Source: a virus
Virus record (IMG/VR): IMGVR_UViG_3300044645_002525
Span: 1-64,000 of that record
DNA: 64,000 nucleotides
Direction: 5' to 3' (one strand)
Below the pieces are notes generated by a model. The model was not told the origin of the DNA. It made no database searches and saw nothing but the letters and a program-made list of their open reading frames with translations. The position numbers and the translations under genes were made by a program. Position 1 is the first letter of the stretch. Each line of letters opens with the position of its first letter. Below are positions 20,468 through 34,073 of this stretch, piece by piece.

Positions 20468-21376
20468 TCAGGCAGAGGCCTGCACGTAGATCATGCTCTT
20501 GGGATAGTACAGAGCAACGCCACCGACGCGGGCATGAGCAGGAACGATGAATTCCAGACCACGCTGCTGAGGCGGGAACAGCTCAAGAGGTTGAGGAATG
20601 TGCAGTTGCACTTTCTCAGGATCGCGCTTGTACACAACCATACGGTCAGTATTCAGCACGCTGTTGTCGGCTTCCAACTGGTTGATGGGCTCAACGTTAC
20701 GGATGTAGGGGTTGGTACGCAGGAAATATTCCAGCACAGTCACGTCCGAAGAATCGGAGTTGCGAGTGGTGCTGATTTTGTTGTAATCCGCGTAGGACAG
20801 CAGAATGGTATCGGGCTGTTCCTTCATCTTGGAGCCGTTGATAATGGCAGTCACGCCATAGTTCAGCAGCTCAAGCATTTCCTGGGCAGTGGTGCCAGTA
20901 GTGGTGAACCACTTATCGGCAGCAACCACGTCCACGGTGGAGTTGTTGAAGAAACCAGCGAGGCCCACAGAGCTTTCACCGAAGAAAGCAAGGCTTTCCA
21001 CTTTCTCTTCATAGGCACGACGCACAGCAGCAGCACGACGCTGCTCTAGGGCGATATTGGCCATTTGAGCAGCACGCAGTTCCTGCACGGTATAGCCAAA
21101 GCTGCCACCGAAGGAACGAATGTTGATGCTCTTCTCCACTTGGCTGATGTCAGCACGGGGCAGATCATCAGCAGCGTCCGCAATCAGACGGAACTCACCA
21201 GTGGAGTCCATGATGCGATAGGTGAAGGTCTGGGCGCCAGGACCAGCTTCAGCAGTGACGGGCAGAACAGTGGGATATTTAATATCCGCATACTGCACTT
21301 CAAAAACTTGGGGGCGAATGTACTCAAGCTGACGCTCAAGGAACAGCCCCGCATCATCCATACGGAATTCAGACAT
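20468..21376 (-). CDS. Major capsid protein, DUF2184-like (302 aa)
   Basis: The ATG at 21376 follows a clear GGAGG ribosome site, whereas the 17-codon extension upstream has none. The protein begins MSEFRMDDAGLFLERQLEYI, then has VLPVTAEAGPGAQTFTYR, SFGYTVQELRAAQMA and an EKVESLAFFGES segment. The C-terminus contains FIVPAHARVGGVALYYPKS. This combination is typical of DUF2184 HK97-fold capsid proteins. The neighbours are a decoration protein and a DUF2213 protease upstream. It forms the icosahedral shell. Confidence 0.8.
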   Translation of the reverse strand: MSEFRMDDAGLFLERQLEYIRPQVFEVQYADIKYPTVLPVTAEAGPGAQTFTYRIMDSTGEFRLIADAADDLPRADISQVEKSINIRSFGGSFGYTVQELRAAQMANIALEQRRAAAVRRAYEEKVESLAFFGESSVGLAGFFNNSTVDVVAADKWFTTTGTTAQEMLELLNYGVTAIINGSKMKEQPDTILLSYADYNKISTTRNSDSSDVTVLEYFLRTNPYIRNVEPINQLEADNSVLNTDRMVVYKRDPEKVQLHIPQPLELFPPQQRGLEFIVPAHARVGGVALYYPKSMIYVQASA

Positions 21377-21392
21377 TGTTAAGAGCCTCCTA

Positions 21393-21953
21393 TCAAGAAT
21401 CAGCAGAGAGGGTGAAGCTCGGACCATTCAGCTCCAGAACAGCGAGGCCGCTGCCAGTGGTGGAGGTGAGGAAACGAGCGTTAGCGAGGCGCACAGTTTT
21501 GCCCGATGCAAAAGCATGGGAGAACTGACCAGCCTTGCCAGTGCCACTAGCGGAATACAGCACACGCACGGGCGATGCGGGAGTAACAGCGCCGGTCACG
21601 TAGACGGCCACTGCACCTTCGTTAGCCACGTTCATGGCTTGCTTATCCTTCACACCAGGACGGCTGTTGCTGTCGAGGGCGGTTTCATCAACGTAGGTGA
21701 GGACGTTGACGCCCAGCACAGTGTCAGAAGCGCCAGAAATGGTAGTGGCGGAATTGGCGATGGTACCAGCAGTGTTGTACACAGCCAGATTGCCGAAGGG
21801 AACAACAGCGCCAGTCTCGTTGACGTAGGTGCCGATGGTGTTGTCGCGGATGTCAGACAGTTGACCTTCCAGCAGTGCAGCATGCGCGAGGCTGTAAGCC
21901 TGTTGCACGCCACCAGCGGAGGCGGTGCCCGAAGCAGAGAAAGTTACGGCCAT
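21393..21953 (-). CDS. Head decoration / structural cement protein (186 aa)
   Basis: An alanine, glycine, threonine-rich 186-residue protein (MAVTFSASGTASAGGVQQAY) with the phrases QLSDIRDNTIGTYVNETGA and PVRVLYSASGTGKAG. Proteins of this type (structural cement, DUF2190-like) sit between the protease and the capsid gene and stabilise the shell. It starts one base past the protease stop and is followed after 16 bases by the capsid start. Confidence 0.6.
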   Translation of the reverse strand: MAVTFSASGTASAGGVQQAYSLAHAALLEGQLSDIRDNTIGTYVNETGAVVPFGNLAVYNTAGTIANSATTISGASDTVLGVNVLTYVDETALDSNSRPGVKDKQAMNVANEGAVAVYVTGAVTPASPVRVLYSASGTGKAGQFSHAFASGKTVRLANARFLTSTTGSGLAVLELNGPSFTLSADS

Positions 21954-21955
21954 AA

Positions 21956-23149
21956 TTACTTAGCCTCCTTGGAGATGGAAAGGGGCTTCTTCCAAGCATT
22001 CTGCAGCATGTCCATGTAGGACGAAGGAGCAGAAACGGGAGAAGCAATGGAAGCTACGGCTTTGCGCAGCTCATCAGTGGTGGCAGAATCTTTGCGACCC
22101 TCAGCGAGAGTGTCAAACATTGCTTGCACGTAGTCGTCGCTCTTCTCAGAAAGATCAAGCTCGTCACCACGCACTGCCTTGATGGAATCAACCATCACTT
22201 CGCGGGCAGTTTTGCCAGCGAAAGCATAAGCTGCATCAAGAACAGGCTTAGCCTTCTCGATGAGAGCAACACGCTCTTCCACCATGGAATCAAGATTGAT
22301 TTCCTTGGCAGCAGCGAGTTCAGCGGAAAGCTCTTCCACTTGTTCAGCCAGAGCATCAGCGCGACCCTCAGCGGAATCACACTTGCCCTTCATTTCTTTT
22401 TCCATGGCGTCCATTTCGGACTTAAGCTTTTCAGCTTGTGCCATGGCATCTTCATATTGACGCTTCATATCGGCGTAGCTACCTTTCGCGTCTTCACGCT
22501 CGGCAGCGATAGCAGCAGCAAGAGCTGCATCAGCCTCATACGAAACGCCGTCAAACGCAATGTTGGCGGTCATTTTTACTCCTGTAGAGGATAGAAGGTC
22601 TTCGACAGCGGCATCCGCTGAATCAAGCATGAGACGCACTTGCGCCCCACCTCTAGCCCTGTTGACAATAGCAACGTGATTGCCACGAATGTTCCGCTGA
22701 ATGCCATCGTAATGTTGGCCATCAGAAGTAATTCCTGGTTCGGGGCTATAGTCCACCCTGTAGCCGCACGATACTTCACGCACGTCTCCGCGCATGATTG
22801 AGTCGATTGTCTCTTTGTCCGTGACAGTCAGAGTGCTTTCAACAAAGCCATCGGAGTAGGAGACGTCCGCGCTGGTAAAACCAACTGCGTAGTCTTTTGT
22901 GTTCAATGCGTCAAGAAGCACCGGAGGATGCTCTTTTGTGACACATTTTTCCCGAAAACTATCTAGCGCCTCAATGGCGGCTACTTCCTCTTCGGGCCTG
23001 TACTCCAAGCGGACGCCTCCGTTCGCATCCGTATAAGACTGAATACCAGTGCGTGCTATCCGCGCTTTGACACGCAAATAGCCCTCATCCGTGAACGTGT
23101 AGTTCTGGATGGTGGAAACGTCGTAGCGGAAGCCGTTTAAGGTGTCCAT
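21956..23149 (-). CDS. Prohead protease fused to scaffold, DUF2213 (397 aa)
   Basis: Residues 1-180 fit the DUF2213 head maturation protease (YLRVKARIARTGIQSY, VTKEHPP, DYAVGFTS, then VSCGYRVDY and NHVAIVNRARGG with the histidine and serine-rich loops expected of the fold). Residues about 195-300 are a charged coiled coil (EKLKSEMDAMEKEMKGK) of scaffold type. The C-terminus is helical. It probably cuts itself and the scaffold during capsid maturation. It lies directly upstream of decoration and capsid genes. Confidence 0.75.
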   Translation of the reverse strand: MDTLNGFRYDVSTIQNYTFTDEGYLRVKARIARTGIQSYTDANGGVRLEYRPEEEVAAIEALDSFREKCVTKEHPPVLLDALNTKDYAVGFTSADVSYSDGFVESTLTVTDKETIDSIMRGDVREVSCGYRVDYSPEPGITSDGQHYDGIQRNIRGNHVAIVNRARGGAQVRLMLDSADAAVEDLLSSTGVKMTANIAFDGVSYEADAALAAAIAAEREDAKGSYADMKRQYEDAMAQAEKLKSEMDAMEKEMKGKCDSAEGRADALAEQVEELSAELAAAKEINLDSMVEERVALIEKAKPVLDAAYAFAGKTAREVMVDSIKAVRGDELDLSEKSDDYVQAMFDTLAEGRKDSATTDELRKAVASIASPVSAPSSYMDMLQNAWKKPLSISKEAK

Positions 23150-23206
23150 ATATTAACTTTACCAACAAACATCGTTTATGATTTGTACAGTTATTCAGGA
23201 CTGACT

Positions 23207-23740
23207 ATGGAGAGGCGCTGGCATTACGTCTACTACTCGTACGAGGAGTGGGGCCGAGGCTATATTGGCAAGCGCTCATCCAAGGTTCCGCCAAGCCAAG
23301 ATCCATACATGGGCAGCTTTAAGGACAAGACTTTTAAGCCTACAAATAAAATTGTTCTCGGTGTTTTTGATACGGCAGAAGAGGCGTTAAGACACGAAGT
23401 AATACTTCATGATTTTTACGAAGTAGGCAAAAATCCGCATTTTGCAAATCAAGCCAAGCAGACTTCATCTCGCTTTTGCTGGCATGGTGATTTGACAAAA
23501 GTGCTTACGCCAGCCGAAGAGCAGCAGCGCCGTTCAAAAATCTCGAAGAGTCAAAGGGCTGGATCGAAAGGTTTCTTCTATAAGCTTGTGTCCCCCAGTG
23601 GCAGTATTCATGTGACAATCAATTTAAGGCAATTTTGCAGAGACCATAAATTAACGCATCAAAATATAGACAAAGTTGCAAAAGGTGAACGCCGCCACCA
23701 CAAGGGGTGGACGGCTAAACGGATGGAGCTAAAACGATGA
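23207..23740 (+). CDS. GIY-YIG-like homing endonuclease (177 aa)
   Basis: The ATG at 23207 has AGGA six bases upstream and is preferred to a TTG at 23183. The N-terminus RRWHYVYYSYEEWGRGYIGKRS fits a GIY-YIG nuclease in which YVYYSY stands for the first strand and GYIGKRS for the second. ALRHEVILHDFY supplies the glutamate helix. The C-terminal part FYKLVSPSGSIHVTINLRQFCRDH is a NUMOD-type DNA-binding repeat. Selfish endonucleases of this form (SegB-like) sit free-standing between phage genes. It is on the strand opposite to the head genes and coupled by ATGA to the XRE gene. Confidence 0.65.
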   Translation: MERRWHYVYYSYEEWGRGYIGKRSSKVPPSQDPYMGSFKDKTFKPTNKIVLGVFDTAEEALRHEVILHDFYEVGKNPHFANQAKQTSSRFCWHGDLTKVLTPAEEQQRRSKISKSQRAGSKGFFYKLVSPSGSIHVTINLRQFCRDHKLTHQNIDKVAKGERRHHKGWTAKRMELKR

Positions 23741-24021
23741 TGCTGCTCAAGAAAAGTGATGTGGATGTGCTTAAGATGCCTCATCAGCAAGCTCGTCTCC
23801 TGATTGCTTCTCGCATTAAAGAAGCCCGCCTTAATAGCGGGCTTTCTCAGAAAGACGTAGCTCAAGCTTTGCATACAAGTCAAAGCTCTTATTCACGAAT
23901 GGAACGCGCTGAACTGGCTCCGGATTGCGTGCAAATTCGCACTCTCAGTGGTCTCTATGGAATAAGCGTATTGTGGCTGATGGGCTATCCCTCGTTCATT
24001 CTCAACACGCGAAGGGATTAA
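23737..24021 (+). CDS. XRE-family helix-turn-helix regulator (94 aa)
   Basis: Residues about 20-75 form a classic Cro/C1 HTH: SRIKEARLNSGLSQKDVAQALHTSQSSYSRMERAE, followed by a conserved LSGLYGISVLWLMG. It would bind an operator as a dimer. Its start overlaps the stop of the GIY-YIG gene and its own stop overlaps the opposing 103-residue gene by four bases. Its target is unknown; it could control the nuclease, the inserted island or the phage's own genes. Confidence 0.8.
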   Translation: MMLLKKSDVDVLKMPHQQARLLIASRIKEARLNSGLSQKDVAQALHTSQSSYSRMERAELAPDCVQIRTLSGLYGISVLWLMGYPSFILNTRRD

Positions 24022-24329
24022 TCCTCGTCCTCGTCATCATCACGAAGGTCGCGAAGTTGATCTTCAATGCCCTCCATAATGTATGACTTCGCCATTGCCT
24101 CAATTTCAAACGTAAGAAACTTAGTCGGATCGAAATGAGGGTCGGGCTTTTCGTAGACGCTCATCACATAGATGTGAGTTTCATCGAGACGACCATTCTT
24201 GAAGCATTGCTTCTCCACTAGTTCCCATCGCGAAGTATTGCGGTGTTCGTTAGCAGAAAGAATGGCCAAAGCCTGCATCACGCCAATACCTTCATCTTCT
24301 TGTTCGATGACGCGTACGTATTCGCTCAT
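24018..24329 (-). CDS. Unknown acidic protein (103 aa)
   Basis: MSEYVRVIEQEDEGIGVMQA at the start and a strongly acidic tail (RDDDEDED). No family recognised. It is coupled by ATGA to the upstream frameshift-extension gene in the head operon. Confidence 0.55.
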   Translation of the reverse strand: MSEYVRVIEQEDEGIGVMQALAILSANEHRNTSRWELVEKQCFKNGRLDETHIYVMSVYEKPDPHFDPTKFLTFEIEAMAKSYIMEGIEDQLRDLRDDDEDED

Positions 24330-24679
24330 TGGCCTGTATTACGACTTTCTACCATCTTAATGATGCGTTTAGCCCATGCCCTCCCGGCATCTCCTCCCCA
24401 TAGCAGCCAAGCAATATATCCAGCATCGTTCTCTCCACCGCTTTTATTCTTCTCATGCCGAGAGAAGAATGCAGACATACGCTTGATTGTGGCATAGCTA
24501 ATCTTGCTGCCACCAGCCAAATCACCAGCCCTGGCAACGCCGCTACCAATACCTTGTTTGCCTGCCTCCTGCGTTGTTAAGCCGCCCTTGCCGTGCTTCT
24601 TGCGCAGTTCCAACCCTCGACGGGCAGCACTTCGCACGGCGGCGGGAGGGGAGAAACTCTCAGCATCTCCCCTCAGCGC
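24326..24679 (-). CDS. Frameshift-fused C-terminal domain of the DUF6496 protein (117 aa)
   Basis: This frame is open from 24679 down to 24326 but has no ATG or GTG before a GTG at 24637. The conserved part starts earlier (DAESFSPPAAVRSAARRGLEL), so that GTG would cut it. The rest, with KISYATIKRMSAFFSRHEKNK and AWLLWGGDAGRAWAKR, is a domain common on phage head-associated proteins. It begins exactly where a -1 shift would move ribosomes out of the DUF6496 gene, so the likely product is a 200-residue fusion. The GTG start at 24637 remains an alternative. Confidence 0.7.
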   Translation of the reverse strand, partial: ALRGDAESFSPPAAVRSAARRGLELRKKHGKGGLTTQEAGKQGIGSGVARAGDLAGGSKISYATIKRMSAFFSRHEKNKSGGENDAGYIAWLLWGGDAGRAWAKRIIKMVESRNTGQ

Positions 24680-24690
24680 TTTTTTCCGCA
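24646..24690 (-). promoter_or_regulatory. dnaX-like -1 frameshift cassette
   Basis: On the minus strand: a GGGAG element, then the heptamer A AAA AAG (24679-24685) in register, four bases, then a perfect 9-bp stem GAGGGGAGA / TCTCCCCTC (24674-24666 with 24654-24646, 11-nt loop). The zero-frame stop TGA lies two codons past the heptamer and just inside the stem. This is the arrangement known from E. coli dnaX and should yield a fused protein. Confidence 0.75.
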
Positions 24691-24927
24691 GCTCCCATCC
24701 ATTTCCTCTTCTTCTTCCTCTTCGCCAATCATCTCCTTAAAGAAGCCCATATAGTATTCGTCGCTCATGTCTTCTTTTGGCTTGCGCGTCATGCCAGCTT
24801 CAGACAAGGCAATTGCTAGTGCTTGCTTCGGACTCTTCACGGCTTCGCCACTGCTGCTCTTCAGCTTGCCGCTTTTGTATTCGCGCATCACCTTGGCAAT
24901 TTTTGCCTGCTTTTCCTTCTTGGTCAT
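24673..24927 (-). CDS. DUF6496-like protein, 5' part of a frameshifted gene (84 aa)
   Basis: MTKKEKQAKIAKVMREYKSG then KSPKQALAIALSEAGM is the usual DUF6496 pattern of phage-encoded small proteins (KVMxEFKxGxLKSSSG...). After an acidic stretch (EEEEEEEMDG) the gene ends SCGKKR in the zero frame. The last codons GGA AAA AAG CGC TGA contain the slip heptamer, so the gene appears to feed a -1 fusion with the downstream domain. It lies between the sugar cassette and the head operon. Confidence 0.75.
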   Translation of the reverse strand: MTKKEKQAKIAKVMREYKSGKLKSSSGEAVKSPKQALAIALSEAGMTRKPKEDMSDEYYMGFFKEMIGEEEEEEEMDGSCGKKR

Positions 24928-24954: not shown

Positions 24955-25671
24955 TCAATGGATGAATCCTATCGGAGCAGTGGCAATGTTCATGCCAGGG
25001 AAAAGCTTGTCACGATACAAAACCATGCCAGTGATGAGACGCTCGGCAATAAAGGCCAACGCTCGCTTGTCATAGCCTCCAATACGAAGAAACTGCTCTT
25101 CGTGCTTATGCCAAATGGGAGCAAGCGCGACAAACAGAGCGCTCATGAATTGCTTGTATTGCACGTTGCCTCCTCGTGCCATATTGCAGCCAATAAAGCT
25201 ATTTTGCTTCCAAATGGCATCAATTTCTTCGCGAGAGAAAATCCAACTCCCGGAATCGGCAAGTTCTCTAGTGATGACAGGAGCGTCAAAAGCTGAATGT
25301 CCACCATAAAACTGCTGCTCCAGCGTGCAATTGAACAGTGCAGGCTCGGGAAAATACAACGTATTTTCGTCGTACCATTGATCATTTGGCTCTAGCCAAT
25401 TACGCCTGTATTGCGCATTGCCAATGTTTTTCTCATTCGCATTGAGAATCATCCAAGAAATACAAGACAGCTCTCCCCATCGGCTATTAAGCCGCGAAAG
25501 GGAAGCATTCTCATCATCAAACACATAGCCCTGTAAGCGGAGCGCTTCACGCTCCTCGCTCGACAAAGTATATGCTCCTCCCATAATGGGAACAATGGAA
25601 GAGCGGGCTTCATAGCGCACTTTCTCACCAGGAATGCACACGGCATAGATGGTGCAATCAGACGGCTGCAT
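24955..25671 (-). CDS. DUF4422-type glycosyltransferase (238 aa)
   Basis: Contains ELSCISWMILNANEKNIGNAQYRRNW, which corresponds to the W-x-x-N-x-x-K-x-x-x-x-G-x-x-x-Y-R-R motif of DUF4422 enzymes, and near the C-terminus GGYDKRALAFIAERLITGMVL, matching the family's R-x-F-x-F-I-A-E-R-L segment. These proteins are found in capsule and surface sugar clusters. It overlaps the next glycosyltransferase by 14 bases on the minus strand, so both are in one operon. Confidence 0.6.
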   Translation of the reverse strand: MQPSDCTIYAVCIPGEKVRYEARSSIVPIMGGAYTLSSEEREALRLQGYVFDDENASLSRLNSRWGELSCISWMILNANEKNIGNAQYRRNWLEPNDQWYDENTLYFPEPALFNCTLEQQFYGGHSAFDAPVITRELADSGSWIFSREEIDAIWKQNSFIGCNMARGGNVQYKQFMSALFVALAPIWHKHEEQFLRIGGYDKRALAFIAERLITGMVLYRDKLFPGMNIATAPIGFIH

Positions 25672-26374
25672 ACACTTTCCTCGCGGACCAAAGCTCGTTG
25701 TAATTGTTCACACCTTTAGCGCCAAGACCAGTCAAGTCCCCGCCTCCTGCAGGCTTGCTCCAAGCCATGATCGTACCATCAGGCAAGACAAACCCTCTGT
25801 TCTTTTGACCATACGTGGGAGTGAGTTCCAGATAGTCGCCATAGACAAAATTGGCTTGACTTCCGTTAATAGCAAGCGCCTTGCCCAACAATGTTGGACC
25901 AGTGGGGCACAGTGGCGTGATGCCATAGTATTGCTCTTTGCAATTTGCCACAATCATTTCAATGGCAGTCTGCAAAGCTTGGTTATCAGGCTTGGAATAG
26001 AGCACAGTCGTAGCACACGCCCAACTGGTATAACTAAAGCGTTGAATATCGCGAAAGGCCAAGAATTCAATGCGGTCGCCAAGATCCACTGCATTAAAAG
26101 CCCTCACGCCAACATCAAAATACCAGCCACCAAGTTTGTTTAACAAGCAAAACCGCCCAAGATCTGCTTTGTAAGAAAATGGCACCAAGCAATCATATGC
26201 CCACACCACTTCTTCACCATAGTTCTCTGCAATAAAAGCACGCAGTGAAGCATCGCTGTAAATGACATGCTCCGCACTAGGGAAGCACGCATCAATGGTG
26301 CCAGTGGCGTGCTTAAGAAATGGGCTCAGCTCTTCCGTTGGATCAGTGGAAAGAAAGATTTGTGAAATCTGCAT
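25658..26374 (-). CDS. GT32-like glycosyltransferase (238 aa)
   Basis: The pattern AYDCLVPFSYKADLGRFCLLNKLGGWYFDVGVRAF (about residues 57-95) is the core of GT32 (Gly_transf_sug) enzymes: KADLGRF-x-x-L-x-x-x-GG-x-Y-x-D. The metal-binding D-x-D is here D-V-G, lacking the second aspartate. The C-terminus has a conserved LTGLGAKGVNNYNELWSA. It probably transfers a sugar onto a glycan, if active. It is 5 bases from the GT4 gene. Confidence 0.6.
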   Translation of the reverse strand: MQISQIFLSTDPTEELSPFLKHATGTIDACFPSAEHVIYSDASLRAFIAENYGEEVVWAYDCLVPFSYKADLGRFCLLNKLGGWYFDVGVRAFNAVDLGDRIEFLAFRDIQRFSYTSWACATTVLYSKPDNQALQTAIEMIVANCKEQYYGITPLCPTGPTLLGKALAINGSQANFVYGDYLELTPTYGQKNRGFVLPDGTIMAWSKPAGGGDLTGLGAKGVNNYNELWSARKVYAAV

Positions 26375-26379
26375 GGCGA

Positions 26380-27603
26380 TCAGGCGATTTTTGCGGGAGT
26401 GCCAAAGCCTTTAAATTCAGGCTCCGCAGGCTTGACAGCTAGTGTTTCATTCACTGCATCCTTGAGCTGCTGCTGAATATAGGGCCAAGTAAAGGGCTCT
26501 TCGTGGAGACGGTTATAGCACCATTGACCATGCTGCTTCAAAATGTCGCGATTCTCATAGTAATAAGTGAGGATATCGGCGGCGCACTCAGGGTCTGGCA
26601 ATAATCGCTCAAGCCCATAGTTTCTGTCGGTTTCACTGGCATTGCATTCAATGCGAGGCATCTCATCAAAGATTTCAGCCAAGCTCGTATGATCAGGAAC
26701 CACTTGCGCCACACCAGTGGCACCATGCTCTGAGTTGACCAAGCCCCATCCTTCGCCAATGCAAGTGTTAATGCCAATATCAGCAGCGTTATACACTTGA
26801 TTGAGTTGTTCAATGGGGAGGCAATTGCCCACTGAATAGTGCGGGCTTGTCAAAATAAGCTTGCCAGTGGCATCAAACCCTTCGTCACGTGCCACTCGCT
26901 TGAAGAGATCAATGATTGGCCAGCCAAGATCTTTTGCTCCCATGTTCAACCAAAGGCGAGCATCATCTTTGTCCTTGGCAAACTTGATAAAGGCTTTAAT
27001 CGTCAGGTCAATGCGCTTTCTGGGTTGATTTCTGTTTCCGTTAAAGACAACAAACACATCGTCCGGTACTCCCAAGATCTTTCGACACTCCTTCTTGTCC
27101 ATCGGGAAGAATTTGGTGAAGTCAGTGCCGTGACCGATAATGCGAATGGGCTTTGTATAACCCATGATCTCTAGTTCTTTTTTAGCAAATTTGGTGTAAG
27201 TGGCCAAGCCGTCCCATTCCATCATTGGGGGAGTGAGATTTGGGAACAATCCATACGAATCAATAGGAGTGTACACAAACCATTTGAAGCCAAGCTTCTC
27301 CCTAAGTGGCTTGGCATTTTCCCATAGACTCAATGCAATCCAGATGTCGTTTGTAATCCATACCAGATCCGGCTTTATTGCTTGAATTACGCTCGCAATA
27401 CGATGAGACCCAAAAGGATCATTCCCATGCGCCATTGCTGGATACATTTTGCAATGCTGCTGCATAGGAGAAGGGTCTCCGTGCCAGTTGGTGCATAACG
27501 CATGTACTTCATATTCCTCCGCGAGCGCTGGAATTAGGTATTCGGCAACTCGCCCAAATCCCGTTTGTACTCCGACATCACCTGCGTAGAGAATCTTTTT
27601 CAT
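26380..27603 (-). CDS. GT4-family glycosyltransferase (407 aa)
   Basis: A full-length glycosyltransferase with a GT-B fold. The N-terminal glycine-rich loop is KKILYAGDVGVQTGFGRVAEYL (residues 2-22). The middle has GTDFTKFFP and NGNRNQPRKRIDLTIKAF, the donor-binding beginning of the second domain. Near the C-terminus is IGEGWGLVNSEHGATGVAQVVPDHT, with the E-x7-E like pattern of GT4. Start is ATG at 27603; an upstream GTG is in frame. It is likely to add a sugar to a glycan on the virion or host surface. Confidence 0.75.
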   Translation of the reverse strand: MKKILYAGDVGVQTGFGRVAEYLIPALAEEYEVHALCTNWHGDPSPMQQHCKMYPAMAHGNDPFGSHRIASVIQAIKPDLVWITNDIWIALSLWENAKPLREKLGFKWFVYTPIDSYGLFPNLTPPMMEWDGLATYTKFAKKELEIMGYTKPIRIIGHGTDFTKFFPMDKKECRKILGVPDDVFVVFNGNRNQPRKRIDLTIKAFIKFAKDKDDARLWLNMGAKDLGWPIIDLFKRVARDEGFDATGKLILTSPHYSVGNCLPIEQLNQVYNAADIGINTCIGEGWGLVNSEHGATGVAQVVPDHTSLAEIFDEMPRIECNASETDRNYGLERLLPDPECAADILTYYYENRDILKQHGQWCYNRLHEEPFTWPYIQQQLKDAVNETLAVKPAEPEFKGFGTPAKIA

Positions 27604-27627
27604 AGGAATCACAAGACTCCCGCAATC

Positions 27628-28140
27628 TTAGTCCGTTTTTTCTTTGTAGTAAAAAGCCAGGTCTTGATCGCATCTAACAGCCTTCAATAATGCGTCCATA
27701 GCGGCTTCTCTGCTTGGAAATCTACCAAGTCTTTTACTGCGAATATATGCCCTCCAAGGATTTTTGATTGACGAAGGATCGAAAGAGACTCCCCTTGCAC
27801 CACTCGTGTTGTCCGATCTCATCTTGACGTTTAACGTGTTCTGCTGCCTAGTGCATGCTCTTAAGTTGCAAGGGCGATTATCAGACGGGTTTCCATTTTT
27901 ATGGTCTATTTCAAGGTCGCCAGGATCCATCCCATTTGACAGAGCCCAAACGATTCGATGAATACCATAGCTATGCCCATCGATACTCACCACTCTGTAG
28001 CCCTTGTTCCATCGTCCTGCCACTTGACCTGGACGCACCCTGTTACTGGTGGGTCTTTTCCAGATCAAGATTCCATCTTTTCTCAACGCAAGAAGATGTC
28101 GAATCCGACAAAGCGGAGGAAGTGGTTTACAGTGCAGCAT
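27628..28140 (-). CDS. HNH homing endonuclease with AP2-like DNA-binding domain
   Basis: Residues about 50-105 contain the HNH signature: YGIHRIVWALSNG, then LEIDHKNGNPSDNRPCNLR and QQNTLN. This is followed by SGARGVSFDPSSIKNPWRAYI, an AP2-like beta-sheet DNA reader typical of phage HNH enzymes. An ATG at 28140 is preferred over an upstream TTG. It probably nicks DNA to spread itself; it lies in the sugar cassette and may have helped bring it in. Confidence 0.8.
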   Translation of the reverse strand: MLHCKPLPPLCRIRHLLALRKDGILIWKRPTSNRVRPGQVAGRWNKGYRVVSIDGHSYGIHRIVWALSNGMDPGDLEIDHKNGNPSDNRPCNLRACTRQQNTLNVKMRSDNTSGARGVSFDPSSIKNPWRAYIRSKRLGRFPSREAAMDALLKAVRCDQDLAFYYKEKTD

Positions 28141-28209
28141 CGGCTCATTCTGGGTGAGTTGATCGCGGACTAGGAGCGGCAAACTCGCTAGTCCACCTCA
28201 TTGTAACGC

Positions 28210-28923
28210 ATGACACGCAGCGCAATAATGGCACTTCCAGAAGGCTCAATTCGCTTTTGTATTAGTACGTGCAAGAAGTTTGCTCCACATACTATTCCCG
28301 TGATAATTCCCAGCTTGCTTGCTGCTGGACTAAAGCCAGAGGAGATTTTGATTGTCAATGGTGGGCAAACCGTCAGGGCTTTCACCAGCTACAAAGACGT
28401 GCCAATGCTGCTGACGCAGCAAAATTCCTTTGAATACACGCCGCTCATTGAGATTGTTGAGCATTCAATGGAGAGTCCCTATTGGTTTCTCCTGCACGAC
28501 ACTTGCATTGCAGGCCCCACGTTTAGACAGCTCGCTTACGAACCGCCAGTGGAGGTGCCAGAGAAAGTGGCAATGAAGCACACGCCTTCCATGAGCATCG
28601 GCCTTTACCGCTACGACTACCTTATGCGCCACAAGGAGCGTTTGATGGCCATCAAAAACTTGGATAGCTCGCCAGAAGCTCTGCAGCAATGGAAGCAATG
28701 GGGAGTGCCAAACGAGGACTACATGCTTTGGAAGCTCCAGGACGTGCCTTGCCACATCTATCATCCAGACAAGCATGGCCCGGACGAATGGAACTATCAA
28801 GGGCACGCAGATCCCTATGGCACTGGTATGCAGCGTCGTATCGAATACTTCCCTCAGCTAGAACTGGCCAAAGCCAAAAGCAATTGGCAAGGCGTACAGC
28901 CCCACCTTTGTATTGACATCTGA
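28210..28923 (+). CDS. Glycosyltransferase-like protein (237 aa)
   Basis: RFCISTCKKFAPHTIPVIIPSLLAAGL then EEILIVNGGQ and later ESPYWFLLHDTCIAGPTFRQLA have the layout of a GT-A fold: N-terminal Rossmann strands, an acidic centre (HDT in place of D-x-D) and an acceptor side. It overlaps the downstream FAD enzyme by one base (TGATG), so they work as a pair. The substrate is unknown and the family cannot be named with certainty. Confidence 0.5.
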   Translation: MTRSAIMALPEGSIRFCISTCKKFAPHTIPVIIPSLLAAGLKPEEILIVNGGQTVRAFTSYKDVPMLLTQQNSFEYTPLIEIVEHSMESPYWFLLHDTCIAGPTFRQLAYEPPVEVPEKVAMKHTPSMSIGLYRYDYLMRHKERLMAIKNLDSSPEALQQWKQWGVPNEDYMLWKLQDVPCHIYHPDKHGPDEWNYQGHADPYGTGMQRRIEYFPQLELAKAKSNWQGVQPHLCIDI

Positions 28924-29876
28924 TGAAGCGCATTGCAATTATTGGTGGCGGCTGGGTGGGATGCCATTTGGCAATGGCTTTTCGCGATGAGGCGGAGGTG
29001 ACGCTATACGAAAAGAACCATACGCTCATTTCAGAAGCGTCTTTCATCAACCAAAATCGGCTGCACTACGGCTACCACTACGCCAGGAATGCCGCCACTC
29101 GTCGATTGTGCGCTACCACTTTTGTGCGCTTCATGGAGGATTATGGCGATCTCGTTCATGATGTAGAGAATAATTACTACGCAGTGTCGGAAGATGAAAG
29201 TCTTCTTGATGCTGAAACCATTTCAATTATTTTCGGGAATGGTCCGCATACCCAGTTAGATCCACAGATCTTTAGTCACACATCGCTTTTATTGGACACC
29301 TCCGAGAAGCGTATTGATGCCATCGGAGCCAATCTGTATTTTCAATGGTGCCTAGAGTCGCTGGTCAAAAAGGAAAAGATTCAGCGATGCAATCTGCAAG
29401 CGCTAAAGCAGGATTACGACTTTGTTTTTGATTGCACCAACAACTCTCTCCTGGAGCCATTGTCTTCTCATTTCTTTGAAGCAGTGGCAATGTTCATCTA
29501 TCGCCCCAAAAAGCCTCTTCCTTTTGGCGCTCTCACTTACATTGACGGCGAACTATTTTCCATCTATCCATACAACGACAAATGCTTCTCGCTGAGTCAC
29601 GTGAAGCATGGAATTATGCCTAGCAATTCGCTTGATAATGCGGACGATGCAAGACGCAATATTGAGCAGCACGTAGAGCGCTACTGGACTGACTTTGCTG
29701 ATAGCTTTGACTATTTATTCCCAACGCTTTCTATCAAAGCAAAAACCAAAGACAGCAGCGCCAATCGCACTCCGCTAATGCGCCAAGAAGACAATTTGTT
29801 TTCCTTCTTCACTGGCAAAATCCAGGGCATCTATGCCATTGAGCAAATGGCAAGGCAAATTATCGCTCAGCCATAA
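28923..29876 (+). CDS. FAD-dependent oxidoreductase-like protein (317 aa)
   Basis: The N-terminus KRIAIIGGGWVGCHLAMAF is a classic dinucleotide-binding GxGxxG fold, and VTLYEKNHTLISEASFINQNRLHYGYHYA supplies the acidic end of the second strand. FDCTNNSLLEPL in the middle and NLFSFFTGKIQGIYAIEQM at the end fit DAO-type or NAD-rossmann oxidoreductases. It overlaps the upstream glycosyltransferase by one base and the end of the opposing TIM-barrel gene by ten. It may modify a sugar donor or amino sugar. The reaction is inferred only. Confidence 0.6.
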   Translation: MKRIAIIGGGWVGCHLAMAFRDEAEVTLYEKNHTLISEASFINQNRLHYGYHYARNAATRRLCATTFVRFMEDYGDLVHDVENNYYAVSEDESLLDAETISIIFGNGPHTQLDPQIFSHTSLLLDTSEKRIDAIGANLYFQWCLESLVKKEKIQRCNLQALKQDYDFVFDCTNNSLLEPLSSHFFEAVAMFIYRPKKPLPFGALTYIDGELFSIYPYNDKCFSLSHVKHGIMPSNSLDNADDARRNIEQHVERYWTDFADSFDYLFPTLSIKAKTKDSSANRTPLMRQEDNLFSFFTGKIQGIYAIEQMARQIIAQP

Positions 29877-30607
29877 AGCTGTCTAAACAAAGGATATTCA
29901 CGATGATGCTTAGAGGCATTGGTTAGTTCGCGAGTGATGCCATATTGATATGAACTTGCATTGAGAAGAAGCTTGATTTGTTTATGCTCATATTGATTAA
30001 GGATGGGACCATTGTCAGTGTCACTGATATGCACATGAGCAATGAAGCGGAAATAATGCTTGATAATTTTTGTGGGGCTATCTCCCTGAAGCCAAGCATT
30101 ATTGGTGTCGAGCATCGTCTTTACATTGCGCAGATTATAGAAATCAATGTGATTGACAATTTCTTCAACTGTATAAAAATACTTTCCACCGAATGCCTTG
30201 GCGATGGGTTCAATGCAAAGGATGGCGTCATTTGCTGCCAGAATTGAATCTATACGCTTGAGTGCTTCCATCAGGCTTGAGGGGCTTCCTCTGCGCAATG
30301 CAGGACTACCAAGAACAAAGCGCTTGATGCCCATCAGCGAACCAAGCTTCACCACTCGCAGCAAATGCTCTTGAGTGGCAGCAGTGTCTTCAAAGCTTTG
30401 CACTGCACTGTGGTAGAACAATGCCTGGGCCGAATATGCCCATAGTCCATAGTCTTCCCTGTAGCGCTTGGCAATATCGCCAAAGTCTTCGTTCCTGGCA
30501 AAGATGCGGGATGGCACTAATTCAATGAAATTGAAAGCGCCAGCATTGGCGCTCAAGATTTCATGCTCTTCCTCGTCCTTCCAGCCAATAGCACTAATTC
30601 CAAGCAC
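29867..30607 (-). CDS. Sugar phosphate isomerase / epimerase-like TIM-barrel protein (246 aa)
   Basis: Motifs of the xylose isomerase-like TIM barrel: NFIELVPSRIF, LGSLMGIKRFVLGSPALR, AILCIEPIAKAFGG (metal-binding glutamate), NVKTMLDTNNAWLQ and AHVHISDTDNGP (acidic and histidine metal ligands). This is a sugar phosphate isomerase/epimerase or AP endonuclease-2 fold. It overlaps the NAD-epimerase gene by 14 bases, which suggests that both act on the same nucleotide sugar. Confidence 0.65.
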   Translation of the reverse strand: MLGISAIGWKDEEEHEILSANAGAFNFIELVPSRIFARNEDFGDIAKRYREDYGLWAYSAQALFYHSAVQSFEDTAATQEHLLRVVKLGSLMGIKRFVLGSPALRRGSPSSLMEALKRIDSILAANDAILCIEPIAKAFGGKYFYTVEEIVNHIDFYNLRNVKTMLDTNNAWLQGDSPTKIIKHYFRFIAHVHISDTDNGPILNQYEHKQIKLLLNASSYQYGITRELTNASKHHREYPLFRQLYG

Positions 30608-31319
30608 TGATAAATTCCTCCATCTTCTTCAGAGTGGTTTCTTTGCTGGAAAAATATGGACCATAATTGTATTCAATGCGTGGCCCGCAATCAACGATTG
30701 TTTTTGCCCATGGGAACCACTTCTCAATAATTTCCAATGTCTCAATGGGTTCCGAAAACCATTGATGCGTTCCTCCTTTTTGACACGCCTCAGTGTGAAG
30801 CCATAAGTCCCTTAAGTCGTACCATTGATAACAAGAATTGGCATTGATCTTTTCGATGTTTTTGCCATTAAGAAGGTCAAATAAAACATTCTTTTTGATG
30901 CGCCGATGAAACAACGCGGGAAGACGAATGATGGTAATTATGGACTCGGGGAAAGTGGCCTTAATTAGCAGCTCAAAAATGTATCGCGTGGAACCATAGT
31001 TAATGCCATGGATTTCCGGAAAGTTTTCCACATACTTATAAGTTTGACTATAAACGTCGACAGTGGAATAGAGAACAATTTCCCTTGGTCTCCACAGCCT
31101 CATCTTTGTCAAAACGTGATACATATTATCGAAATCTGCCATCGGCGCTTGATTCGCCTTCCACTTCTCTGCTGGCAAGCAAGCCAAATAAAGCCTGTCG
31201 ATATCCTGCTTTAATGATGGCGCTAAATGAATATTTTCGGAATTAAAAAGGTAGCCAAAGTCGTGATGCTCGCGCAGCACTCTTCCGATTAATCCTGTGC
31301 TTCCAACCAATACATCCAT
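30594..31319 (-). CDS. NAD-dependent epimerase / dehydratase-like protein (241 aa)
   Basis: Starting at the ATG at 31319 the protein begins MDVLVGSTGLIGRVLREH, a short-chain Rossmann GxxGxxG loop. EIVLYSTVDVYSQTYKYVEN contains the serine/tyrosine region seen in extended SDRs, and GINYGSTRYIFELLIKATFP carries the YxxxK-like segment in altered form. It begins 2 bases past the stop of the minor head gene. It likely alters a nucleotide sugar in the surface-glycan pathway. Confidence 0.65.
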   Translation of the reverse strand: MDVLVGSTGLIGRVLREHHDFGYLFNSENIHLAPSLKQDIDRLYLACLPAEKWKANQAPMADFDNMYHVLTKMRLWRPREIVLYSTVDVYSQTYKYVENFPEIHGINYGSTRYIFELLIKATFPESIITIIRLPALFHRRIKKNVLFDLLNGKNIEKINANSCYQWYDLRDLWLHTEACQKGGTHQWFSEPIETLEIIEKWFPWAKTIVDCGPRIEYNYGPYFSSKETTLKKMEEFISAWN

Positions 31320-31321
31320 GC

Positions 31322-32005
31322 TCAAACCGCCACGACGGGCGCTTGTTGACGAAGGTATTGTACTCTGCACTTGCAATTGCTCATGCAAGCACAACGTTGC
31401 CCTGGCATGGGAAGGCTCCCAATGGAAACAGTGCCCCTCGATGCGTAACGCAAGCAATCGTCACAATGCTTCGCTTGAGGGTCAAGAATGCGTCGCATCA
31501 AGCTATAGCCTTGTTTTTCTTGGCGAATTGTAGCTCCTTCCCAATAAGTGCCCCTGAGAGCTGCAGCATAAAGGCCGACCCTACTAATAGCCATGGGAGT
31601 AGAAATGCTCCCAGCCAGAAGATCGCGAGCAAAACCCTCCAGATAACGGTATTCCGCACGAAGGCGTTGACCGATGCGGCCCCAATCCGAAGCCTGCATA
31701 TTGTCCCTGCCACCATTGCCAATAATTGCTGCTTGTACATGTGCAAGCTTAAGCGCTTCCCTCACGCTTTCCTGCCATTGAACCAGCGTAATATCGCCGT
31801 TGCTAAGCATGTTTGTAAGACGACGTAGCAAAGTGCCAAGCTTGTTAATTCGACCATCAACCAAAGCTTCAACGGCAGACTGACTAAGGAAGCGTCCGTT
31901 ACTTCCGCGATAACGGCCAGTAACGGGGTCGTAGCGCCATGATGATTCATCAAGACGCAGTTCAAGAGCGGCAGCGAACGTTGATAGATCATTCAGGCCT
32001 TGCAT
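31322..32005 (-). CDS. Minor head protein, SPP1 gp7-like (227 aa)
   Basis: A portal-associated head protein. The N-terminus MQGLNDLSTFAAALELRLDE leads into DPVTGRYRGSNGRFLSQ and a helical part with NMLSNGDITLVQWQESVREAL. The C-terminus contains DPQAKHCDDCLRYASRG, then GQRCACMSNCKCRVQY, a cysteine-rich zinc-binding-like end typical of this family. It lies downstream of the portal gene with a 17-base overlap and upstream of the sugar cassette. Confidence 0.65.
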   Translation of the reverse strand: MQGLNDLSTFAAALELRLDESSWRYDPVTGRYRGSNGRFLSQSAVEALVDGRINKLGTLLRRLTNMLSNGDITLVQWQESVREALKLAHVQAAIIGNGGRDNMQASDWGRIGQRLRAEYRYLEGFARDLLAGSISTPMAISRVGLYAAALRGTYWEGATIRQEKQGYSLMRRILDPQAKHCDDCLRYASRGTVSIGSLPMPGQRCACMSNCKCRVQYLRQQAPVVAV

Positions 32006-34073
32006 CTTCAGCCTCCAGAATATCCTTGAAACGCTCAGGAGCTTCCTCCTTCCATTGATTCAATGCAGCGTCAATGTCTTCTGGACTAATCAGCGATGCT
32101 TCGTCCACGTCAGAAAGGATGAGACCTTCCACTTTCATGGGCTCAAGCGCATCCACTTTGCTGCTCACATTCTTAGCAGGGCCTTTACGTTCTGGATCAG
32201 GATCGGCTTTGCGCTTGCGAGCCACAATTGTTTGACGCTCTTCTTTGCTCATGGCTTGCGCCTTGGCTTGCGGCAGGCATTTAGGCTTGCCTTCTTTTTC
32301 CTCGCGAGCACCACATGGACCAAGGATTTCGCCATTAGCGCCAATCCTCACCCATTTCTCCTTAAACCACTTATCAAGATCATCGGCATGAAGCTCCTGT
32401 TCGTCGCTCTTGAAAGCTCCGCTCAGTGAGCCATGCTTCTTCTTGTACATTTGCTTGTACTGTTGTACGACGTAACCACTGGCGTAAGCAGAAGGCCACA
32501 CTTTAAATTTAGATTTGGCGGCACTCACCGCCCGCGAATGCAGATCTTTGTCAGTGAAAGTTACGTCACCACGAACTTTCTCTAGATCACGAGGCAGAAA
32601 CAGACCAGCAACGTCTTGCACTTCACGGTTTCCGTCCATGGGAAGCGTGCCATTTTCTTCGTTCATTGGATCACGACCGCCAGGAGGCACCGCCATTTTC
32701 CCGTCACCCCCTTTCTGAGTGGAACCACCCCCAATTTGAGTGGGAAGTTCCCGCACTACGGACGGATCAAGCGTAAGCTCCATGCTCCACTCAGAACCGC
32801 CGTAGCGGGCATCTGCCACCTCCTTGGGACTCAGCACACCTAGCTGGATGTAACGGCCGTCTACAGCCGCCACGCGCGCCCGTACGTCAGCCATTTCGCG
32901 CTCATTAAGCTCGAACAATGGATTGAAGGAGATGCGCCATGATTCGGGCAGTTCTCCTTTCGTCGGACCTTCTTTACTGAGCATGATGTATTCAAGCAGC
33001 TTCTTCATCGGCCGCTTGAAATTGACGCTTTGATAATCAGCAAGCATCTTGGCAAAGTCACGCTCTTCGCTGCGACCAGTGGAACCAAGACCACTCGGGC
33101 TTTCGCCAAACAAAACAGTGTGAGGAATCTTGCTGGCGCCAATAATATCAACGCGCAGCTTTTCTAAGATTTCTCCAATGCCACCAAAGTTGCGACTAAT
33201 AAATTCAAGCTCTTCTTTCTCCGCATCAATCGCGTAGCCGCGATAGATGCTTTTGCTCATATCATTCACCTGCAGGCGATCACGAATGGAACTTTCCTTG
33301 CCAGCAGCAAGCATCGCTGCCAAGCCCCTCACTTTATGAACAAAAATATCAAACTCAGTGAGAAGCGTGGCCGCTGAATTCAATCCCGTCCAATAATGCC
33401 TGAAGCTGTCATAAACAGTCTGCAAGCTGCTCATGCCCCATCCATAGTTCCTTTGCCGAATGCGATAAGGAAGCCAATCCCCGTCAAAGCGAAGAATCCT
33501 ATCCTTGTGAATGTAGGACAATTGTGGCTGGTTAATTAAATCTCCAGAGATGATCTGATAATAAGTGGCTTTTGAATAGTCGTAGAGGTTTTCTTCGTTG
33601 ATAACGGGCGCAATTTGCCATCGGTCCAAGCATTCAATGTCTTCGATGCGACGGATATTCCGTTTATCGACAGGCATGTAAGCGGGACGCCCATCGTCAA
33701 TAAAAAGAAGTAGACAAGCACCCCCATAAAGGCGGGCGTTCTTTGCTGCGAGGTTGAGATGTTCGAGGATGTAGAGGTCTTCAATTACTTGCTCAATGCC
33801 TTGCACTTCTTCAGCCCTAACGCCATCGCCACCAAACAATACTTTGAAGCCTTTTCGAGTGGCCTGGTCAGCATAAATATCAACAATGCGACGAGGAAGC
33901 CATTCACCATAAAGATTTTCTAGTTCTTCTTGTGCCAGAAATACTGTGGCTGTAGTTTTAGTGTATTGGCTTTTGTCGCGACCAGTGCCCATGCCAATGA
34001 GCACGTTTGTGAGTCCATCAGCCCTCACTCCGCCACTGCCAACGTGGCCGAGATCAATTGCTTCGCCTTCCAT
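31989..34073 (-). CDS. Portal protein with C-terminal DUF5872-like domain (694 aa)
   Basis: The first 450 residues fit a DUF1073-type portal: LENLYGEWLPRRIVDIYADQATRKGF, ARLYGGACLLLFIDDG, NYGWGMSSLQTVYDSFRHY and the GESPSGLGSTGRSEERDFAKML region. Residues about 510-625 (KSKFKVWPSAYASGYVVQQYKQMY, then EKWVRIGANGEILGPCGAREE and RKRKADPDPERKGPAKN) form a DUF5872-like unit usually found as a separate small protein. The portal forms the ring for DNA entry and exit; the role of the extra domain is not known. The terminase lies divergently 0.6 kb away. Confidence 0.8.
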   Translation of the reverse strand: MEGEAIDLGHVGSGGVRADGLTNVLIGMGTGRDKSQYTKTTATVFLAQEELENLYGEWLPRRIVDIYADQATRKGFKVLFGGDGVRAEEVQGIEQVIEDLYILEHLNLAAKNARLYGGACLLLFIDDGRPAYMPVDKRNIRRIEDIECLDRWQIAPVINEENLYDYSKATYYQIISGDLINQPQLSYIHKDRILRFDGDWLPYRIRQRNYGWGMSSLQTVYDSFRHYWTGLNSAATLLTEFDIFVHKVRGLAAMLAAGKESSIRDRLQVNDMSKSIYRGYAIDAEKEELEFISRNFGGIGEILEKLRVDIIGASKIPHTVLFGESPSGLGSTGRSEERDFAKMLADYQSVNFKRPMKKLLEYIMLSKEGPTKGELPESWRISFNPLFELNEREMADVRARVAAVDGRYIQLGVLSPKEVADARYGGSEWSMELTLDPSVVRELPTQIGGGSTQKGGDGKMAVPPGGRDPMNEENGTLPMDGNREVQDVAGLFLPRDLEKVRGDVTFTDKDLHSRAVSAAKSKFKVWPSAYASGYVVQQYKQMYKKKHGSLSGAFKSDEQELHADDLDKWFKEKWVRIGANGEILGPCGAREEKEGKPKCLPQAKAQAMSKEERQTIVARKRKADPDPERKGPAKNVSSKVDALEPMKVEGLILSDVDEASLISPEDIDAALNQWKEEAPERFKDILEAEDARPE

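Follow-up and report, generated by a model that had tools for sequence, protein, structure and literature searches.

A DUF6496 gene in a viral head gene cluster is probably decoded in two ways by programmed -1 ribosomal frameshifting

The DUF6496 gene described here lies on the minus strand of a 64,000-nt stretch of DNA from a cyanophage-like virus, the whole of which we call the window, and it is very probably decoded in two ways by programmed -1 ribosomal frameshifting (we put the probability at about 0.92). Most or many ribosomes would stop at the zero-frame TGA to give an 84-aa protein, and a fraction would slip back one base by tandem re-pairing on the heptamer A_AAA_AAG, helped by a stem 4 nt downstream and, in this phage, probably by a GGGAG upstream. 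The slipped ribosomes would continue in the -1 frame to give a 200-aa protein (83+117 residues), in which the DUF6496 part carries a helical domain of about 115 aa. The fused form may be a minor head-assembly or internal-capsid protein made in a fixed proportion to the short form. We infer slippage itself, and the role of each form, from sequence. The mechanism is a known one in a new gene family: in the literature searched, which was that outside the S-CBS4 genome paper, no description of a frameshift at this locus was found, and the first-pass annotation had named none for the gene pair. The features of the gene are as follows:

24326..24927, minus strand: whole frameshift gene, predicted to give 84 aa without a shift and 200 aa with a -1 shift
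24673..24927, minus strand: zero-frame ORF, 84 aa, with a DUF6496 domain and an acidic Glu-rich tail ending ...CGKKR (from translation and Pfam)
24692..24696, minus strand: Shine-Dalgarno (SD)-like GGGAG, with a gap of 6 nt to the heptamer
24679..24685, minus strand: slippery heptamer A_AAA_AAG (AAAAAAG), in register
24673..24675, minus strand: zero-frame stop TGA, reached after the heptamer and one codon (CGC)
24666..24674, minus strand: 5′ arm of the stem, GAGGGGAGA, conserved core 24666-24672
24646..24654, minus strand: 3′ arm of the stem, TCTCCCCTC, conserved core 24648-24654
24326..24679, minus strand: extension in the -1 frame (117 codons and a stop) for a helical domain of phage head proteins, part of phrog_2859

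The zero-frame ORF begins with the ATG at 24927 (minus strand). Heptamer, GGGAG, spacer, stem and stop were all found exactly where the first-pass annotation had placed them; the spacer between heptamer and stem is CGCT, 4 nt (24678-24675), and GAGGGGAGA pairs with TCTCCCCTC at 9/9 positions. The trans-frame peptide predicted across the junction reads ...CGKKALRGDAESF.... Folding of the 81-nt region gives -34.9 kcal/mol with a z-score of -2.65, which is modest taken alone, and the case is therefore built on conservation in more than 100 relatives. On scanning the whole window for the same architecture, 5 sites were found, among which the DUF6496 site has by far the strongest downstream structure. 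The case for frameshifting rests on a signal kept in several heptamer forms, covariation in the stem, selection on the -1 frame and natural fusions of the two parts, and these are taken up below.

A core set of 102 unique viral loci with both halves visible was collected from the protein query alone, and a larger set was obtained by widening these relatives by alignment and DNA pattern. The canonical X_XXA_AAG is present at the exact place in 92 of the 102 protein-query loci and the two parts form one continuous ORF in 10; a third kind, split but without the heptamer, was found in 0 of the 102. On dividing the 92 split loci by heptamer, 74 have A_AAA_AAG, 14 have G_GGA_AAG and 4 have C_CCA_AAG, and all three types stand in the zero-frame register (92/92). 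It may be noted that the first-pass annotation had named a heptamer broken by synonymous changes in a gene that stays split as the outcome that would speak against it, and this was seen in 0 of the 92 split protein-query loci. For all three heptamers, -1 frameshifting has been measured in E. coli (PMC4066793), and U_UUA_AAG variants were absent from one pattern scan of viral contigs. The zero-frame stop lies exactly 3 nt past the heptamer in 119 of 127 split loci. On the tree, the heptamer changes number 14 for AAAAAAG, 18 for GGGAAAG and 4 for CCCAAAG (4, 6 and 2, respectively, are forced by well-supported branches), and a switch always ends in another canonical tandem-slip heptamer. The nearest isolate to this virus, Synechococcus phage S-CBS4, shares heptamer, stop and stem in its gp018/gp019, which are annotated in GenBank as two hypothetical proteins. 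In databases the second half either stands as a hypothetical protein of its own or lacks a valid start, and the annotation of many aquatic viruses would accordingly be wrong at this place.

A search for homologues in which the two parts are one continuous protein had been proposed as a check, and such fusions do exist at 10 unique loci (L047, L065, L080, L094, L102, L104, L124, L128, L136 and L151), all single ORFs of 182-216 codons. The fused state accounts for 6 changes on the tree of the second domain, 3 of them forced by well-supported branches of a weakly resolved tree, which points to repeated switching between split and fused forms. In four other loci (L137, near position 2716, L194, L196 and L215) the N-terminal partner of the frameshift domain is another one or is very short; in L137, whose heptamer is C_CCA_AAG, the partner cannot be recognised as DUF6496 over the stretch covered. 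These four loci suggest that the slip cassette and the domain may move as a unit.

Conservation at the DNA level, also proposed as a check, holds in the relatives for the stem as it does for the heptamer. Of the 9 pairs, 8-9 are formed in 115 of 127 split loci as opposed to 3 of 10 fused loci, this control set being small, and the mean MFE of the 41 nt past the heptamer is -17.3 kcal/mol in split and -10.1 kcal/mol in fused loci. The covariation score is 0.169 vs 0.089 for shuffled data, with 0 of 500 shuffles as high (92 distinct sequences), and does not exceed 0.077 when the partners are slid as a control. Most of the covariation is supplied by the pair of columns 18-34 (AU 44, CG 33, UG 6, GU 2, GC 1), at which the third base of a Gly codon, a synonymous position, changes together with the first base of a Ser/Ala codon; in one sequence another pair is compensated as well (GC to AU). 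A 7-bp core of the stem was independently proposed by RNAalifold. Correction for the tree leaves 4 independent pairs on well-supported branches, and the differing ones are all as expected, too few for significance. The codons that make up the two arms (R-G-D and S/A-P-P) are themselves conserved, which means that conservation of the stem is partly at the protein level, and the dip at synonymous sites is mild (0.69 vs 0.85 elsewhere; the lowest of 98 windows). Overall, loci of the frameshift class preserve the stem and show covariation in it, whereas in fused loci it decays. The 4-nt spacer and the covariation agree with what is expected of a downstream structure in bacterial -1 frameshifting (a distance of 4-9 nt and compensatory change).

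We take the upstream GGGAG as a possible, non-essential stimulator; it is not universal in relatives. Across the family, anti-SD pairing peaks for the 8-mer ending 7-9 nt upstream of the heptamer, and at -7 the SD-like pairing has a mean of -4.8 kcal/mol, with 64% below -4 kcal/mol, in the purine-rich background of the Glu tail. Some relatives lack the element and have GATGGCTCCTGCGG or similar in its place.

The -1 frame is open for 117 codons, as the first-pass annotation had it, and in relatives the similarity continues through the junction. Its codons 4-15 have a pN/pS of 0.25 vs 1.8 and 3.3 in the other frames. The sole early start codon of this frame is the GTG at 24637 (103 aa), which is not preceded by an SD sequence, and from it a second, separate gene might be translated by reinitiation or coupling after the TGA. 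This is how GenBank annotates S-CBS4 gp018/gp019, the GTG is present both here and in gp019, and it is just 36 nt from the stop. Yet the codon is GTG in 27 of 105 relatives and GTA, GTT or GTC otherwise, no ATG, GTG or TTG occurs in the -1 frame before codon 24 in 72 of 105 sequences, and a start preceded by an SD is present in 6 of 105, all of which bears out the claim that the frame has no good start of its own. Moreover, the codons before the GTG, the 4-15 given above, are under protein-level selection and belong to the fold: the AlphaFold model of the -1 domain (mean pLDDT 89) is confident from about residue 11 (pLDDT 97 for residues 11-20), and the fold therefore starts before the GTG. 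The -1 frame is thus under purifying selection upstream of any usable start. We rejected an own start at GTG 24637 on two grounds: relatives do not keep this codon as a start, and the domain reaches further upstream. Two separate genes would also leave the invariant heptamer unexplained and sit badly with the ten relatives that are one ORF, and we regard this arrangement as very unlikely.

Slippage could instead be transcriptional, with RNA polymerase gaining or losing an A in the A-run so that some mRNAs encode the fusion in frame. There are six A's at this site and runs of 8 A's in L037, L105 and L159, but bacterial transcriptional slippage has been described for runs of 9 A's or T's (PMC5009743), next to which six A's are short. 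Relatives with G_GGA_AAG or C_CCA_AAG have no long homopolymer and nevertheless keep frame, stop and stem, on which ground transcriptional slippage was rejected as the general mechanism; the spacing of the stem and the position of the stop (+3) also suit slippage by the ribosome. At this locus, too, we hold it to be highly improbable. The existence of single-ORF fusions allows one more reading, whereby the split is damage to a fusion, by frameshift mutation or assembly error, and yields no product. The same split is however shared by an isolate and over 120 unique contigs, both frames are conserved or under purifying selection, and the stop of the -1 frame overlaps the next ATG, which makes decay or mis-sequencing scarcely credible. 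Programmed ribosomal frameshifting remains the reading that we adopt in what follows.

As for the identity of the two parts, the first matches DUF6496 (PF20106) with 36.7 bits against a curated cut-off of 24 (E=5e-9), and the -1 domain matches phrog_2859 (E 1e-16). A model of a whole natural fusion (L047) has a pTM of 0.51, which is moderate (8-sequence alignment), and it was read for secondary structure alone. Neither half has a match in NCBIfam, the -1 domain has none in Pfam, and sequence and fold searches of the PDB with this domain gave nothing significant. A fold search against viral models (BFVD) gave 57 matches with E<=0.001, and many of these carry the name prohead protease, XkdF or portal. 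In Limnohabitans phage DC31 the -1 domain forms the N-terminal part of an XkdF-family serine protease; it is likewise N-terminal in protease-capsid polyproteins of two phages, S-CBS1 of Synechococcus and CRP-821 of Roseobacter, lies inside the annotated prohead protease of HGTV-1 and is free-standing in Pseudomonas phage PaBG. DUF6496, of which no mention was found in the literature search, stands alone directly before the portal gene in Vibrio phage vB_VpM-pA2SJ1. Because the -1 domain occurs on proteases, portals and polyproteins, and because the frameshift gene sits between the portal and head protease genes, a role of this gene in head assembly is likely by inference. The description of the extension as head-associated, earlier suggested from the sequence, is now backed by domain architecture as well as by position, and this is a first functional clue, namely head assembly, for both DUF6496 and the phrog_2859 domain.

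The first-pass annotation had likened the site to E. coli dnaX (tau/gamma). This holds for the signal, as A_AAA_AAG, a downstream stem-loop and an early stop are shared and an SD-like GGGAG stands upstream in this phage, and fails for the logic of the products: in E. coli dnaX the frameshift yields the shorter product (PMC5009743), whereas here it would yield the longer one. For Chlorobium dnaX, a longer product from frameshifting has been suggested (PMC5009743). The genes themselves are unrelated, and the SD spacing of 6 nt found here is not conserved, the element itself varying in relatives. Closer in outcome are T7/T3 gene 10, Lactobacillus phage A2 and Listeria A118/A500, in which some copies of a head protein gain a C-terminal domain by a -1 frameshift near the end of the gene (PMC5009743). 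The place of the shift and the partial extension are shared, but there the gene is that of the major capsid protein and the domain is Ig-like, unlike the small DUF6496 gene between portal and protease and its helical domain. The tail-assembly chaperones G/GT resemble the predicted case in that ribosomes slip in tandem shortly before the first ORF ends and so make a longer minor product, although the position and the proteins are others and the DUF6496 gene does not lie just upstream of the tape measure gene. Elsewhere the phrog_2859 domain shares one reading frame with a protease or portal; here a frameshift would attach it to DUF6496. The present case would bring a further gene family into the small group of phage head genes for which frameshifting is known, with comparative evidence that is unusually strong (three interchangeable heptamers, natural fusions as internal controls and a covarying coding stem). 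Tentatively, and at clearly less than even odds, we suggest a widespread cyanophage-type head module in which frameshifting sets the dose of a procapsid companion domain on a DUF6496 carrier, with repeated switching between frameshifted and hard-fused states. If true, a domain that is fused directly to prohead proteases, portals or polyproteins in other bacterial and archaeal viruses would be attached here at a ratio set by the ribosome.

The neighbouring genes of the head cluster are:

24018..24329, minus strand: following gene, 103 aa, unknown; ATG and the TGA that ends the -1 frame overlap as ATGA, here as in S-CBS4
21956..23149, minus strand: head maturation protease (DUF2213)
20468..21427, minus strand: major head protein
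31989..34073, minus strand: portal protein with a C-terminal DUF5872 region (1.5e-12)

The DUF5872 region on the portal is a further example of a small, uncharacterised domain attached to a head protein. Between portal and protease, a block of sugar-type genes is inserted in the head cluster (24955-31457, both strands: a glycosyltransferase, DUF4422, an FAD oxidoreductase, a xylose isomerase-like TIM-barrel and others), and S-CBS4 has glycosyltransferases at the same place. Two homing-endonuclease-like genes also lie in the cluster, at 23183-23740 (plus strand) and 27628-28182 (minus strand), named as such from a weak NUMOD-like match below the cut-off and a match to HNH_3. An HTH_3 repressor-like gene (23737-24021, plus strand) runs on the opposite strand in the head operon, where S-CBS4 has an annotated transcriptional repressor. 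Further along, A_AAA_AAA occurs in register at 17073-17067 (minus strand) near the end of a 179-aa ORF (17579-17040), with AGGAGG upstream; the -1 frame there is open for more than 150 codons (to 16606), just upstream of a 2129-aa tape measure-like gene. This site is a typical candidate for the tail-assembly chaperone G/GT frameshift, and with it the phage probably uses two frameshifts.
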